NCBI GenBank assembly: GCA_937124585.1
Contig: CAKZKT010000155.1
Location: forward strand, 1 to 48,988
DNA: 48,988 nt
Direction of reading: 5' to 3'
Source: an uncultured Anaerolineae bacterium
Lineage (GTDB): Bacteria; Chloroflexota; Anaerolineae; CG2-30-64-16
The notes under the pieces were generated by a model that did no database searches, was not told where the DNA came from, and was given only the letters and a program-made list of their open reading frames with translations. Positions 20,481 to 26,200 of the stretch are shown piece by piece (the first letter of the stretch is position 1; every line of letters starts with the position of its first letter). The position numbers were made by a program, and so were the translations under genes.

Positions 20481-20510
20481 TTGGCAGGTTGACTCATATT
20501 CTGGTATGAT
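20481..20510 (+). promoter_or_regulatory. Promoter of the chaperonin-like gene
   Basis: TTGGCA (20481-20486) and TATGAT (20505-20510) are 18 bases apart, each one mismatch from consensus. The ATG at 20556 follows after about 40 bases, with AAGGGA (20541-20546) as ribosome-binding site. It is divergent from the pyk promoter. Confidence 0.65.
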
Positions 20511-20555: not shown

Positions 20556-22250
20556 ATGCCCAGCCGATATGGACGTCCACCCAAAGAAAAAAAAGAGACC
20601 CCCTACGTCGTGTTTAAGCCGGCAGCGGTTCGTTCTATGCAGCGCGGCATCAACCTGATGGTGAATGTGCTGCGGCCCACCCTGGGCCCACACCATCGCA
20701 TCGTCGCCCTGGACAAGGTCGTGCGCGGCGGCGTGCCCGAGATGCTCGACAGCGGTGGGATCATCGCCCGTCGCATCCTGGAGCTGCCCGATCGCGATGC
20801 GGACATGGGCGCCATGTTCGTTCGCCATATGGTCTGGCGCCAGCACGATCGGGAAGGGGATGGCACGGTCACTCTGGCCCTGCTGTTCCAGTCCCTCTTC
20901 AACCAGGGTGTGACCTATCTGACGGCCGGCGGCAACGCCATGGCGTTCCGCGCCCATCTGACGCGCGGCGCCGAGGCGATCCAGGCCGAGCTGACGAAGA
21001 TGGCGCGGCCGGTCGAAGGCCCCGAGATGCTCGCGCACGTGGCCGAATCGGTCTGCTTCGATCCGGCCCTGGCGCGCGTGCTGGGCGAGATCTTCGACAT
21101 CATCGGTGAGTACGGCCGGCTCGAGCTGCGCGAGGGCCGTGGCTTCGAGCCGGAGCGCGAATATGTCGAGGGGATCTACTGGGACGGCGGGCTGCTCTCG
21201 CGCGCAATGATGGCGCCCATGCCGCGCACTGTGGCCATGCCCGGCTCGCGGCCCACGGATAAGACGGTGTTGCGCGCCGAGACCGAAAACCCGGCGATCC
21301 TGCTGACCAACTTCGACATCCAGAACCCCGAGGACCTGATCCCGGTGCTCCGCACGGCCGTCGCGGCCGGCCACAAAGCCCTGGTCATCGTGGCCCGCAA
21401 CCTCTCCGAGGCCGCGGTGAGCCTGTTGATGGCCAATCGTTCGCCGGAGCGATTGTGGATTTTCGCGGTCAAATCGCCCGGCCCTGGCTCGGATGACGAG
21501 GCGGACGGGCTGGAGGACATGGCCCGGCTCACCGGCGGCACGCCCCTGCTCAGCGCGGCCGGCGACAGCCTGGCGCGCGTGACGGCCGCGCACTTCGGCC
21601 GCGCGCGGCTGGCCTGGGCCAACCACGAGTATTTCGGGATCATCGGCGGCGGCGGCGATCCTCGTGTGCTGCGCCGCCACATCGCCGACCTGCGCGACGC
21701 GTTCCGCCGCGTGCAGGACTCGGAGACGCGTAAGAAGCTGCGCGCGCGCATCGGCAAACTCATGGGCGGCACTGCCACGCTCTGGATCGGCGGTTTCACT
21801 CCGGCCGATATCGAGTTCAAGAAGGAGTTGGCCGAGCGGGCCGGCGATGCGGTGCGGGGGGCCATGCTGGAAGGGGTGGTGCCGGGCGGCGGCATCGCGC
21901 TGCTGGCCTGTCAGCCCGTGATCGAGCGCCTGCTGGCTGCGACCGATGACCCCGATGGCCGCGCGGCGTTGCGCGCCCTGCACCGCGCGCTCGAAGAACC
22001 GCTGCGCGCCTTGATCGAAAACGCCGGGTACGATCCCAGTACCGTCCTCGCGCAGATCCGCCACGCGCCGGCCGGCTACGGCTTTGACGCCGTGCGCGGC
22101 GCGGTTGTGGACATGATCGAGGCAGGCATCTTCGACGCCGCCGCCGTCCTCCGCCAGGCCGTCGTCACCGCGGCGACCGGCGCCGGGCTGGCGCTGACCA
22201 CCGATGTCCTCGTGCACAAGCGAAAACCGGTACAGGAGCTGAACCCGTGA
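20556..22250 (+). CDS. Divergent GroEL-like chaperonin paralogue lacking the catalytic Asp398
   Basis: This 564-residue protein follows the GroEL domain plan: equatorial (LRPTLGPHHRIVALDK, EGDGTVTLALL at 100-110), intermediate/apical (YGRLELREGRGFEPE), then equatorial again (GVVPGGGIALLA, AGYDPSTVLAQI, GYGFDAVRGAVVDMI). Identity to true GroEL is low. The stretch from GGTATLWIGG (404) to EGVV (440) aligns with GroEL GGVAVIKVGA to EGVV without gaps. GroEL Asp398, needed for ATP hydrolysis, then falls on Arg428. The segment around GroEL Asp52 reads MLDSGG with a small insertion, so that residue is ambiguous. There is no GGM-rich tail and no groES nearby. The N-terminal 14 residues are basic. It is coupled to the propeller gene by TGATG. 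A specialised or scaffold chaperonin is inferred. Confidence 0.85.
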   Translation: MPSRYGRPPKEKKETPYVVFKPAAVRSMQRGINLMVNVLRPTLGPHHRIVALDKVVRGGVPEMLDSGGIIARRILELPDRDADMGAMFVRHMVWRQHDREGDGTVTLALLFQSLFNQGVTYLTAGGNAMAFRAHLTRGAEAIQAELTKMARPVEGPEMLAHVAESVCFDPALARVLGEIFDIIGEYGRLELREGRGFEPEREYVEGIYWDGGLLSRAMMAPMPRTVAMPGSRPTDKTVLRAETENPAILLTNFDIQNPEDLIPVLRTAVAAGHKALVIVARNLSEAAVSLLMANRSPERLWIFAVKSPGPGSDDEADGLEDMARLTGGTPLLSAAGDSLARVTAAHFGRARLAWANHEYFGIIGGGGDPRVLRRHIADLRDAFRRVQDSETRKKLRARIGKLMGGTATLWIGGFTPADIEFKKELAERAGDAVRGAMLEGVVPGGGIALLACQPVIERLLAATDDPDGRAALRALHRALEEPLRALIENAGYDPSTVLAQIRHAPAGYGFDAVRGAVVDMIEAGIFDAAAVLRQAVVTAATGAGLALTTDVLVHKRKPVQELNP

Positions 22251-23233
22251 TGTCCGATCCCGACCAGGAATTGCTCGCTGACGAGACCGAGCTGCCCGGC
22301 GATGTGGTCTATGCGCTGGTGGCCTCGCCGGCCTGTGATCGTGACGGCGTTTGTTTCGCCGCGCGCGCCTCGGGTCTCTATCGTTCTGTGGATGGCGGCG
22401 CCACCTGGCAGCCTGCCTATGCCAGCCTGAAATTGGACAGCGACCTGGCGACCCCAGCCGTGGCTGTCTCGCCTGACTTCGCTTCCGACCGCACCGTCTT
22501 TGCCGGTGTGGCCGGCGCGATCCTGCGCTCGCACGATGCCGGCCAGACCTGGTATGCCAGCCTGTTGCCTTCTCCGCCGCCGGTCGTCTCCTGCCTCGTG
22601 ACCTCGCCGAACTATGTGCAGGACGGCGTGATCTTCGCCGGCACGATGGAGGACGGCGTCTTTCGATCGTCCGATCGTGGCAGCCTGTGGGTGCGCTGGA
22701 ACTTCGGCCTGCTCGATCTGCATGTGTTGGCGCTGGCCCTCTCGCCCGATTTCGCCCAGGACGAGACGTTGTTCGCCGGCACCGAGAGCGGCATCTTCCG
22801 CAGCACGAACGGCGGCCGGGCCTGGCGCGAAGTGCCCTTCCCCACCGAGTTGGCGCCGGTGCTCAGCTTGGCCATTTCGCCGGCGTTCCGGCAAGACGGC
22901 CTGATCATGGCCGGCACCGATGCGCACGGCCTGCACGTGTCGCGCGATCGGGGCAAGACCTGGTCGCGGCTGGGCGAGGGCGTGCTGGAGGGCTCGGTGA
23001 ACGCGGTGTTGTTGGCCGTCGATTTTCCGACCACGCCTCGGGTGTTGGCAGTCACTTCAGCGGGGGTGTTCACTTCGGCCGACGGCGGCATGCGCTGGCG
23101 TGCGCTGGCCGTCGGCCTGCCCGAAGACGCGACGGTGGTGACGGTCAGCGCGCCGTTGGGGTTGCGACCGGCCGCGCCGTTGTTGCTGGGGCTGGCGGAC
23201 GGCACCGTCATCGCCGCGGCAGGGGAGTTTTGA
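22250..23233 (+). CDS. Asp-box (BNR/sortilin-like) beta-propeller protein
   Basis: This 327-residue protein contains six Asp-box motifs (S-x-D-x-G-x-x-W type): SVDGGATW, SHDAGQTW, SSDRGSLW, STNGGRAW, SRDRGKTW and SADGGMRW. They are spaced about 45 residues apart and alternate with strands such as SPDFAQDETLFAG. This predicts a six-bladed, sialidase/VPS10-like propeller covering nearly the whole protein. There is no signal peptide or membrane helix, so it is probably cytoplasmic, unusual for Asp-box propellers. It starts at ATG 22250, sharing one base with the chaperonin stop (a GTG at 22247 is also possible), so the two are made together. No catalytic residues are recognisable; a binding or adaptor role alongside the chaperonin is inferred. 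Confidence 0.82.
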   Translation: MSDPDQELLADETELPGDVVYALVASPACDRDGVCFAARASGLYRSVDGGATWQPAYASLKLDSDLATPAVAVSPDFASDRTVFAGVAGAILRSHDAGQTWYASLLPSPPPVVSCLVTSPNYVQDGVIFAGTMEDGVFRSSDRGSLWVRWNFGLLDLHVLALALSPDFAQDETLFAGTESGIFRSTNGGRAWREVPFPTELAPVLSLAISPAFRQDGLIMAGTDAHGLHVSRDRGKTWSRLGEGVLEGSVNAVLLAVDFPTTPRVLAVTSAGVFTSADGGMRWRALAVGLPEDATVVTVSAPLGLRPAAPLLLGLADGTVIAAAGEF

Positions 23234-23241
23234 CTACGTCC

Positions 23242-23276
23242 ACGTGCCAGGCATCTTGCCAGAGTGCCTGGCACGT
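23242..23276. repeat. Palindromic repeat, copy 1
   Basis: ACGTGCCAGGCA (23242-23253) and TGCCTGGCACGT (23265-23276) are perfect 12-base inverted arms around an 11-base loop. It starts 8 bases after the propeller stop. The same element occurs twice at 44.3 kb; 17 bases including CGTCCACGTGCC are identical with copy 3. Confidence 0.85.
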
Positions 23277-23294
23277 TGAAGGGGGATTTTCGGG

Positions 23295-26200
23295 TCAGGC
23301 CGCGCTGGCGGCCTTTTCTTTTTTCCGGCCGGCTGCTTCTTGCCGCGCTTTGCGCGCCGCCAGCCCGGCCTGGACGCGTGCCAGGAAGCCTTCCACCAGG
23401 CTATAGGCGGTCGGCACGATCACCAGCGTCAACAGGGTCGAAGTGATCAGCCCGCCGATCACCGTGACGGCCATGGCGCGCCGGAAATCGCTCCCCGAAC
23501 CGATGCCCAGCGCCACGGGCAACATCCCCAGGATCAGCGCCATCGTCGTCATCAGGATCGGTCGCAGGCGGATCGGCCCGGCGAGCTTGAGCGCGGCATC
23601 GCGCGCCATCCCCTTTTCGCGGCGGAACCGGTTGGTCAGGTCCACGAGCAGGATCGAGTTCTTGGTCACCAGGCCCATCAGCAGGATGAGCCCGATCATG
23701 GCGGTCATGTCGAGCGGCAGGTTGAAGATCAGCAGAGCCAGCAGGCCGCCGACGATCGCCAGCGGCAGCGCCAGCATGATCACCAGCGGCTGGATGAACG
23801 AACCGAACTGGGACGCCAGCACCATGTAGATGAAAGCGACGGCCAGCAACATGGCGTCTGTCAGTGCGTCGAATGCTTCATTTTGGAGTTTCTGTTCGCC
23901 GGTGAAGGAATAGGTCGCGCCGGCCGGCAGGTCCATGGTCTTGAGCAGCCTGTCCACGTCGGCCACCACGTCATCCTGGATGCGGCCGAAGGCGCTGGCG
24001 CCGATCACCACCGAATACTGGCGGTTGACCCGGTTGATCTGCGTTGGGCCGCTCGTCGGCTGGAGGCTGGCAATCTGGCGCAAGGGGATGAAGCCGCGCG
24101 CGGTGGGCACTTGCAGATCGAGCACCTGTTCCAGGTGCACGCGGTCTTCGGGCCGCAGGCGCACGCGGATGTCCGCGTCTGGGCCTTCCCCTGTGAAGGT
24201 AGCGACCTTGTCGCCTTCGATCAGGGCGCGCACCGTGCTGCCCACCGTCGCCGCGTTGATGCCCAGATCGGCGGCCTTGCGCCGATCTACCACGATCTCC
24301 ACTTCGGGCTTGCCGGGCTTGTAGGAGACATCCACATCCACCAGCCCCGGCACGGCTTTGAGCTGTTCGGCCGCAGCCAGCGCGAATTGATTGAGCTCCT
24401 CCGCGCTGCCCACGGTCTGGAGGGTGATCTGGATCGGCCGGCCGAGCACGCTGGTGTTGCCGCCGGCAGCCATCGAGGTGAAGGTCGGCGGTGTGATCGT
24501 CAGGCCGGGGATGTCGGCCAGGTCGCGCCGCGCCTGCGCGATGAAATCGGCCTGTTTGACGCCGGGCTTGAGCTGGACAAAGAAGGTCGCGTTCTCCGGC
24601 GTGCCGGCGCCGCCCACGGTCGCGAGCACGGTGCGCACTTCGCCATAGTGGAGCAGGCGCGCTTCCAGCTCGCGCGCAGCCTTGTCGGTTTCGGCCAGCG
24701 CCGTGCCCGGCGGCAGGCTCAGGCCGATGGTCAGGCTGCCCTGATCCACCGATGGAACAAACGCGCGCTTCAGGAAGGTTGCGCCGTAGACGCTGGCGGC
24801 CAGGAGCACGATGCTCACGGTCAGCGTGATCAGCTTGTGGCGCAGCGTCCAGCCCAGCAGACGGCCGTACACGCGGTTCAGCCAGCCCATGAGGCCGCGC
24901 TCGACCTCGTGCACGTCTTCCGGTGCCACGGGCCTCTCGACCTTTTTCTGCTTGAAGAGGTAAGCCGACAGCATCGGCGCAAAGGTCAGCGCCTCGAAGA
25001 GAGAGATGAGCACCGCCACGCTGACGACGACGCCGAAGGAATTCATGAAACGGCCGACCAGCCCGCCGACGAAGGCAATCGGGATGAAGACCGAGACGAT
25101 CGTCAGCGACATGGCGAGCACGGGCAGCGCCACCTCGGCTGTGCCGCGCCGCGATGCCTCTTTGGGCGTGGCACCGGCCTCCATATGGCGGAAGATGTTC
25201 TCGCGGACAACAATCGCATCGTCAATCACGAGGCCGACCGAGAGCGCCAGCGCCAGCAGCGAGACGATGTTCAACGTCATGTTCTGTGCCTTCATCACGG
25301 CGAACGTGCCCAGGATGATGAAGGGCAGGCCGGCGACTGTGACGAGCGTGTTGCGCACATTGCGGAAGAAGAAGAGCACGATCAGGGAAGCCATCGCTGC
25401 GCCGATCACCAGCTCGTGCATGGCCGCATTGAAGCTTTCTTCCACGAAGAGCGATTGATCGCGCACGATCGTCATTTTGAGATCGGGTCGCTCCTTTTCC
25501 AGACGTTTCAACGCCTCCTTCACCCGTCGGGCGACCTGCACGGTGTTCGTGCCCGACTGTTTGCGCACCGAGATGATGACCGCTTCCTGGCCATCGAGCC
25601 GGCTGTAGGTGTCCTGTTCTTTCCAGCCATCCTGCACCACGGCCACGTCGCCCAGCCGCACGGCGCCCAACGAGGAGGCGATCTGCAGATTGGCGATATC
25701 TTCCACTTTGGCGAAGTTGGCCGGTGTCCGCAGCAGCAGGTTCTGGCCCTGTTGCTGGATGCTGCCACCCGGAATGCTGTAGCTCTCCATGGTGATCGTT
25801 TGGATCACCTGTTGTGGCGCCAGCCGGCGGGCCTTGAGCGCGTTGGCATCCAGCAAGACTTGAATCTCGCGCTCGCGGCCGCCGGTCACCGTGGCATCGG
25901 CCACACCGTCAATGCGCTGGAGGCGCGGCAGGATCTCGTCGGTGACCGTCTGGCGGATGTTCTGCGGCGCGACGGCATCCGTCTGTCCGGCCACCGAGAT
26001 GTTGAGGATCGGGAGCGCGGCCGGGTCGTAATTGCGCACGCTCGGCTCCAGGATGTCTTCGGGGAGCTCGCTGCGCACGTTGGCAATCTTCTCGCGCACA
26101 TCCTGGAGCGCCTGCTTGACGTTGGTGTCCAGGTTGAATGTCACCACCACGATGGAGAGGCTCTCGCTCGACTGCGATTGCACCTCCTGGACGCCCGGCG

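Follow-up and report, generated by a model that had tools for sequence, protein, structure and literature searches.

Our data reveal a gene pair, conserved within the phylum Chloroflexota, that encodes a GroEL-derived variant chaperonin (vCpn) without the catalytic Asp398 and a cytosolic beta-propeller. It lies in a 48,988-nucleotide contig from an uncultured Anaerolineae bacterium that was analyzed at its full length (hereafter, the window). The reading that we favor, at a probability of roughly 0.55, is that the pair constitutes a conserved Chloroflexota two-gene module, in which a slow-cycling, specialized group I chaperonin works with a partner cytosolic propeller in the service of sugar-use operons. 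Our literature search, weak as evidence since it covered open-licence papers only, turned up no account of a chaperonin-propeller pair in bacteria.

A GroEL-derived chaperonin with an altered catalytic site

A preliminary description of this DNA had recognized a GroEL-sized protein with the GDGT nucleotide loop and the VVPGGG hinge. This is borne out by a Cpn60_TCP1 family match in a profile search (111 bits), by PDB GroEL chains that match over the full length (E ~1e-82), and by alignment with E. coli GroEL, which served as the reference for residue numbering; the GDGT loop occupies residues 101-104, and the hinge is also retained. In addition, the AlphaFold model (pLDDT 82) superposes most closely on subunits of GroES-bound GroEL (TM ~0.8 by query). 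The whole-length homology to GroEL identifies vCpn as a group I chaperonin. It is derived from that group, yet it scores 311 bits against the GroEL equivalog model TIGR02348 (NCBIfam), below the 582-bit cut-off, and of the catalytic residues it has Asp87 but neither Asp398 (Arg) nor Asp52 (Ser).

Asp87 with the GDGT loop, Thr30-Gly32-Pro33, Gly414-Gly415, and Asp495 are conserved in the window vCpn, whereas Asp398 corresponds to Arg428, Lys51-Asp52 to Asp-Ser, and Thr90 to Val. Both the Arg at the Asp398 position and the altered Asp52 region had been noted previously, and both hold. An alignment slip that would bring Asp431 to position 398 was rejected: the relatives align without gaps up to the VPGGG hinge, Asp431 falls on His401 of E. 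coli GroEL, and Arg is common to 41 of the 46 close relatives at position 398. Position 51 is Asp in 45 of these relatives and position 52 in only 19. The label "degenerate" given to the protein in the preliminary description did not survive, as Asp87 (46/46), Arg398 (41/46), and Arg452 (44/46) indicate clear constraint. The GGM tail is absent, as had been stated, but its absence is not diagnostic because the canonical GroEL of the same genome ends in PAAPASNPDMY, and we dropped tail loss as a mark of altered function.

The ATPase timer is considered a core element of GroEL function, and the D398A mutant is a laboratory tool. In E. coli, GroEL D398A has ~2% of wild-type ATPase, with apical movement and client release both slowed (PMC3813556). 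Given this and the loss of Asp398, very slow ATP hydrolysis and cycling are plausible expected properties of vCpn by analogy; hydrolysis could be restored by Asp51, which hardly varies within the crown clade. We did not use the idea of a charge swap (Lys52 with Glu398 in L019 and L065 versus Asp51 with Arg398), which perhaps reflects one event.

Inter-ring positions 452 and 461 are Arg and acidic/Asn, respectively, in most relatives, a pattern that is no more than suggestive of a heptameric double ring. The apical peptide-binding positions 234, 237, 259, and 263 are hydrophobic in most relatives. GroES-contact Tyr199 and Tyr203 are lost, with the other GroES-contact positions still hydrophobic. 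As a signal for the propeller being a client or a cap, these residues seem ambiguous.

The propeller gene and its junction with vCpn

Table 1. Features of the gene pair in the window
Feature	Position	Strand	Remarks
Sigma-70-like promoter candidate, TTGGCA-18-TATGAT	20481..20510	+	TG before -10; consensus match only
vCpn (variant chaperonin) gene	20556..22250	+	564 aa; GroEL-derived; Asp398 -> Arg428
Ribosome-binding-site candidate AGGAG, propeller gene	22235..22239	+	Read directly; position +/- 1-2 bases; inside vCpn end
Beta-propeller gene	22250..23233	+	327 aa; cytosolic; predicted seven-bladed; six Asp-boxes
Terminator-like hairpin and T-run, 3' of propeller gene	23297..23324	+	Weak on its own

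The junction of the two genes (Table 1) reads CCG TGA, and the propeller ATG begins on the last A of TGA (22250). This agrees with the one-base overlap first described; a 4-base overlap is also possible through an alternative in-frame GTG start at 22247, which the AGGAG closely precedes. The promoter candidate matches the consensus at 10 of 12 positions, where 0.2 such sites are expected in the region, and for terminator-like hairpins the chance expectation is 2.1 sites. Together, the promoter candidate and the 3' hairpin would fit one two-gene transcript. A short inverted repeat, ACGTGCCAGGCA...TGCCTGGCACGT, is also present just 3' of the propeller gene (window 23240-23280). Upstream, the vCpn gene is flanked by divergently read genes for pyruvate kinase and phosphoglucose isomerase; beyond the propeller comes an RND efflux pump.

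A profile search matched the propeller to Asp-box (BNR) and related propeller families. The six Asp-boxes reported earlier were recovered with the pattern S-x-D-x-G-x-x-W; the blades, however, appear to number seven, as sequence repeats and the AlphaFold model (pLDDT 93.2, pTM 0.89) indicate, with the last lacking a box. The blades differ among themselves, and WNFGLLDL and NGGRAWRE are conserved motifs of the propeller. With its repeated boxes on a propeller fold, the protein is an Asp-box (BNR) beta-propeller, and the nearest solved folds are those of GH74 propellers and Ycf48. It scores 104.7 bits against the F510_1955 family glycosylhydrolase model (NF045728; cut-off 175 bits) and 45.1 bits against the Ycf48 model (NF010237; cut-off 326 bits), below the threshold in each case. 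The protein had been called signal-less, and indeed no N-terminal hydrophobic stretch was found in it.

Distribution of vCpn and loss of Asp398

A single-protein scan of 84,980 species' genomes, which reaches close relatives only, uncovered 27 relatives, all from Chloroflexota; the isolate Anaerolinea thermolimosa IMO-1 is among their sources. Searching 248 class genomes and 400 phylum genomes as well brought the family to ~80 relatives, all in Chloroflexota; some Anaerolineae genomes contain several copies. In a tree rooted on 13 canonical GroELs (including that of E. coli), they form one clade, sister to canonical GroEL, with 100% SH-aLRT support. Because this quick tree search left 29 open forks, the fine branching order is unsure; L181 was left out (wrong reading frame).

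The basal vCpn lineages keep Asp398. Among them, the f74 lineage (L145 and L146) has groES directly upstream and no propeller. The middle lineages carry Glu, Gln, Ala, His, or Lys at this position, with Asp398 retained in L082, a long-branch row in the middle of the tree. Arg occupies position 398 in 48 of 54 rows of the crown clade, in which the loss of Asp398 is nearly fixed.

Pairing and co-inheritance of vCpn and the propeller

The propeller lies directly downstream of vCpn in about 58 of 82 distinct relatives whose downstream sequence is known, and in about 35 of 39 (~90%) within the window's clade. With redundant loci counted, 63 of 64 mapped cases have the adjacent propeller 3' of vCpn on the same strand, the sole paired relative with the opposite orientation being L011. 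None of the adjacent propellers of mapped pairs has an N-terminal signal-like stretch. The coupling proposed in the preliminary description is real, conserved, and old, and neither of the two results named there as refuting the reading emerged. Natural fusions of the two proteins were rejected; the candidates L008 and L029 seem instead to be ORFs that are frameshifted or overlap.

A close vCpn is present in 25 of the 248 class genomes and the propeller in 23; 20 genomes have both (chance 6e-22, kinship ignored). The distance matrices of the two proteins are correlated (r = 0.81, 0/2000 permutations), a value that is inflated by shared species history. The duplicated copies in genomes G014 and G073 exist as vCpn-propeller pairs, and in the best-matched of these, both proteins share the same nearest relative. 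Linkage and common descent explain part of these matching distances, which are no proof of contact because linkage alone also gives co-inheritance of neighbors.

The bond is not absolute, since ~1/4 of the vCpn clade has no adjoining propeller and genome G058 carries a close propeller homologue (L112:2815-3891) with no close vCpn detected. L115, L117, and L121 retain Asp398 yet are paired with a downstream propeller of 660-670 aa; propeller pairing therefore probably preceded the loss of the catalytic residue. Propellers are ~315 aa long in the crown and 630-700 aa in deeper lineages (two-propeller length, with 9-12 Asp-boxes).

Canonical GroEL and a second vCpn in the same genome

The source genome (4.83 Mb, 99.8% complete) carries a single canonical groEL, which adjoins the sole groES on a contig other than that of the window; the window vCpn thus has no groES in its operon. 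No propeller-paired vCpn has a neighboring groES except L153, where it is >1.5 kb away. A perfect CIRCE (0 mismatches) precedes the genome's own groES-groEL. None was found near the window vCpn (best, 9 mismatches) or elsewhere in the window, nor near any vCpn of the family (best, 5 mismatches), and heat-shock (HrcA/CIRCE) control of vCpn was rejected on this ground. A second vCpn gene (L032:6388-6756), cut by the end of contig C138, directly follows genes for a binding-protein-like lipoprotein and two ABC permeases. This second copy, the missing CIRCE, and the sugar-operon setting go beyond the preliminary description, whose interpretation is partly supported.

Association with carbohydrate operons

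Many of the pairs sit in operons for carbohydrate uptake or catabolism. A BPD_transp_1 permease is the immediate upstream gene in 14 of 39 same-strand cases, typically in the order solute-binding protein, permease, permease, vCpn, propeller, with a permease gap of 3-50 bases. These permeases come from several unrelated lineages, and those compared are mostly <35% identical. The own genome has 132 permease matches, estimated at roughly 3% of genes. Against that background, 14 of 82 gives P = 2e-7 and an estimated 7 distinct permease lineages of 82 gives P = 0.014, both indicative values that ignore kinship. Other neighbors include GH32, alpha-L-fucosidase, FGGY and PfkB kinases, zinc-type dehydrogenases, sugar-isomerase-like TIM barrels, transaldolase, Ldh_2, and gluconolactonase. 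Non-sugar neighbors (SMC, AFOR, and others) occur too. The operon context varies, and many pairs, including that of the window, are not beside an ABC importer. The constancy of the pair while the sugar genes change argues for a general rather than substrate-specific role.

In L090, L078, and L080, vCpn lies directly 3' of ABC permeases and has no propeller, and a PhyH-type dioxygenase gene is found nearby downstream in L080 and L090. In L142 (5700-6554), a gluconolactonase of the SMP-30 family, which we take to have a propeller fold itself, follows a vCpn that lacks the Asp-box propeller. The binding proteins at L012:2098-3597, L010:2333-3811, and L032:2306-4360 have N-terminal twin-arginine-like motifs (SRRDFLR, TRRDFIR) and a lipobox-like Cys. 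Judging from these motifs, they may be exported by Tat, in which case their folding would take place in the cytosol and a dedicated chaperonin could assist it.

Proposed mechanism and alternative explanations

We propose that vCpn is specialized away from general heat-shock folding. It would assemble into a ring like that of GroEL and bind ATP via the retained pocket residues. With the catalytic Asp398 gone, hydrolysis would be very slow, and the ring, rather than completing a cycle every few seconds, would consequently remain in long-lived ATP states. Encoded on the same transcript, the propeller would bind this ring, either as a protein that is folded and held by it or as a stable cap or adaptor that takes the place of GroES. 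This complex would serve the sugar-use operon in which the pair sits. A more elaborate version, in which a seven-bladed propeller replaced GroES as constant partner and hydrolysis was then abandoned, converting a folding machine into a long-lived, ATP-locked cage or scaffold for the sugar importers and catabolic enzymes of the same operon, strikes us as rather unlikely.

The client and cap roles, which are branches of the favored explanation, can also be considered separately. The propeller may be only a difficult-to-fold client for which vCpn is a private cage, the propeller itself being the working part, such as a Ycf48-like cytosolic assembly factor that binds glycans or proteins, or a GH74-like enzyme. 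The fold matches to GH74 and Ycf48, the hydrophobic apical positions, and the folding of seven-bladed WD40 propellers by eukaryotic CCT/TRiC (PMC8544692) all speak for this less probable alternative. Translational coupling, however, suggests near-equimolar synthesis, an amount of chaperonin beyond what a single client would require; certain vCpns lack an adjoining propeller, and the same conserved propeller type is present whatever the sugar of the operon. If instead the propeller capped the ring, a seven-bladed disc would sit on a presumed seven-fold ring in place of GroES. The absence of groES beside paired lineages, the absence of the propeller from the lineage beside groES, and the loss of Tyr199 and Tyr203 agree with a cap. 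Yet the differing blades make the symmetry match only approximate, mid-tree relatives have propellers of double length, the other GroES-contact positions are still hydrophobic, and both rings could still share the one GroES of the genome. We consider a cap improbable.

Another explanation, which we regard as unlikely, is that vCpn is an ordinary chaperonin with normal ATPase and relocated carboxylates (Asp51 for Asp52 and, e.g., Glu427 for Asp398), and that the propeller is a passive neighbor. Nearly all close relatives do have Asp51, and Glu beside position 398 is frequent. Across lineages, though, position 398 is Arg, Glu, Gln, Ala, His, Lys, Asn, or Tyr, a variety that fits the loss of a catalytic demand, and chance is a poor explanation for adjacency that spans a deep tree. 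Decay of a GroEL paralogue or pseudogene beside an unrelated gene could account for the lost catalytic residue and GGM tail, but it is already contradicted by intact ORFs, strongly conserved sites in dozens of species, multiple copies, and a conserved partner, and was rejected as very improbable.

Comparison with known systems

vCpn shares with canonical GroEL (HSP60/Cpn60) full-length homology, the three-domain fold, the GDGT loop, Gly414-Gly415, Asp495, and the inter-ring Arg452 position. It differs in the changes at Asp398, Lys51-Asp52, Thr90, and Tyr199/Tyr203, in having no groES or CIRCE of its own, and in its propeller partner. The D398A mutant has lost the same catalytic position; unlike it, vCpn occurs in nature across a whole clade, usually with Arg instead of Ala. 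This natural change arose along a tree with an Asp398-keeping base and is tied to one partner, and it makes it possible to examine directly how a chaperonin performs when it hydrolyses little or no ATP. Some Anaerolineae have several copies of the module, which is also found in the isolate Anaerolinea thermolimosa, and its setting suggests carbohydrate uptake as the process in which to seek its role.

CCT is a group II, eight-fold, ATP-hydrolysing chaperonin that, unlike vCpn, is not known to be gene-coupled to one propeller. Still, CCT/TRiC with its WD40 clients (and PhLP1) likewise ties a chaperonin to seven-bladed propellers (PMC8544692), and the vCpn-propeller pair is a bacterial parallel to that link. 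The nearest solved folds of the window propeller, the Asp-box propellers Ycf48/HCF136 and GH74, are only about 15-20% identical to it in sequence. Those proteins are exported or thylakoid-associated, and the window propeller has no signal. The chlamydial GroEL2 and GroEL3 are, like vCpn, divergent GroEL paralogues beside a working GroEL, and we know of no propeller partner for them. Against the models of these two proteins, the window vCpn scores 94 and 92 bits, far under the 600-bit cut-off.
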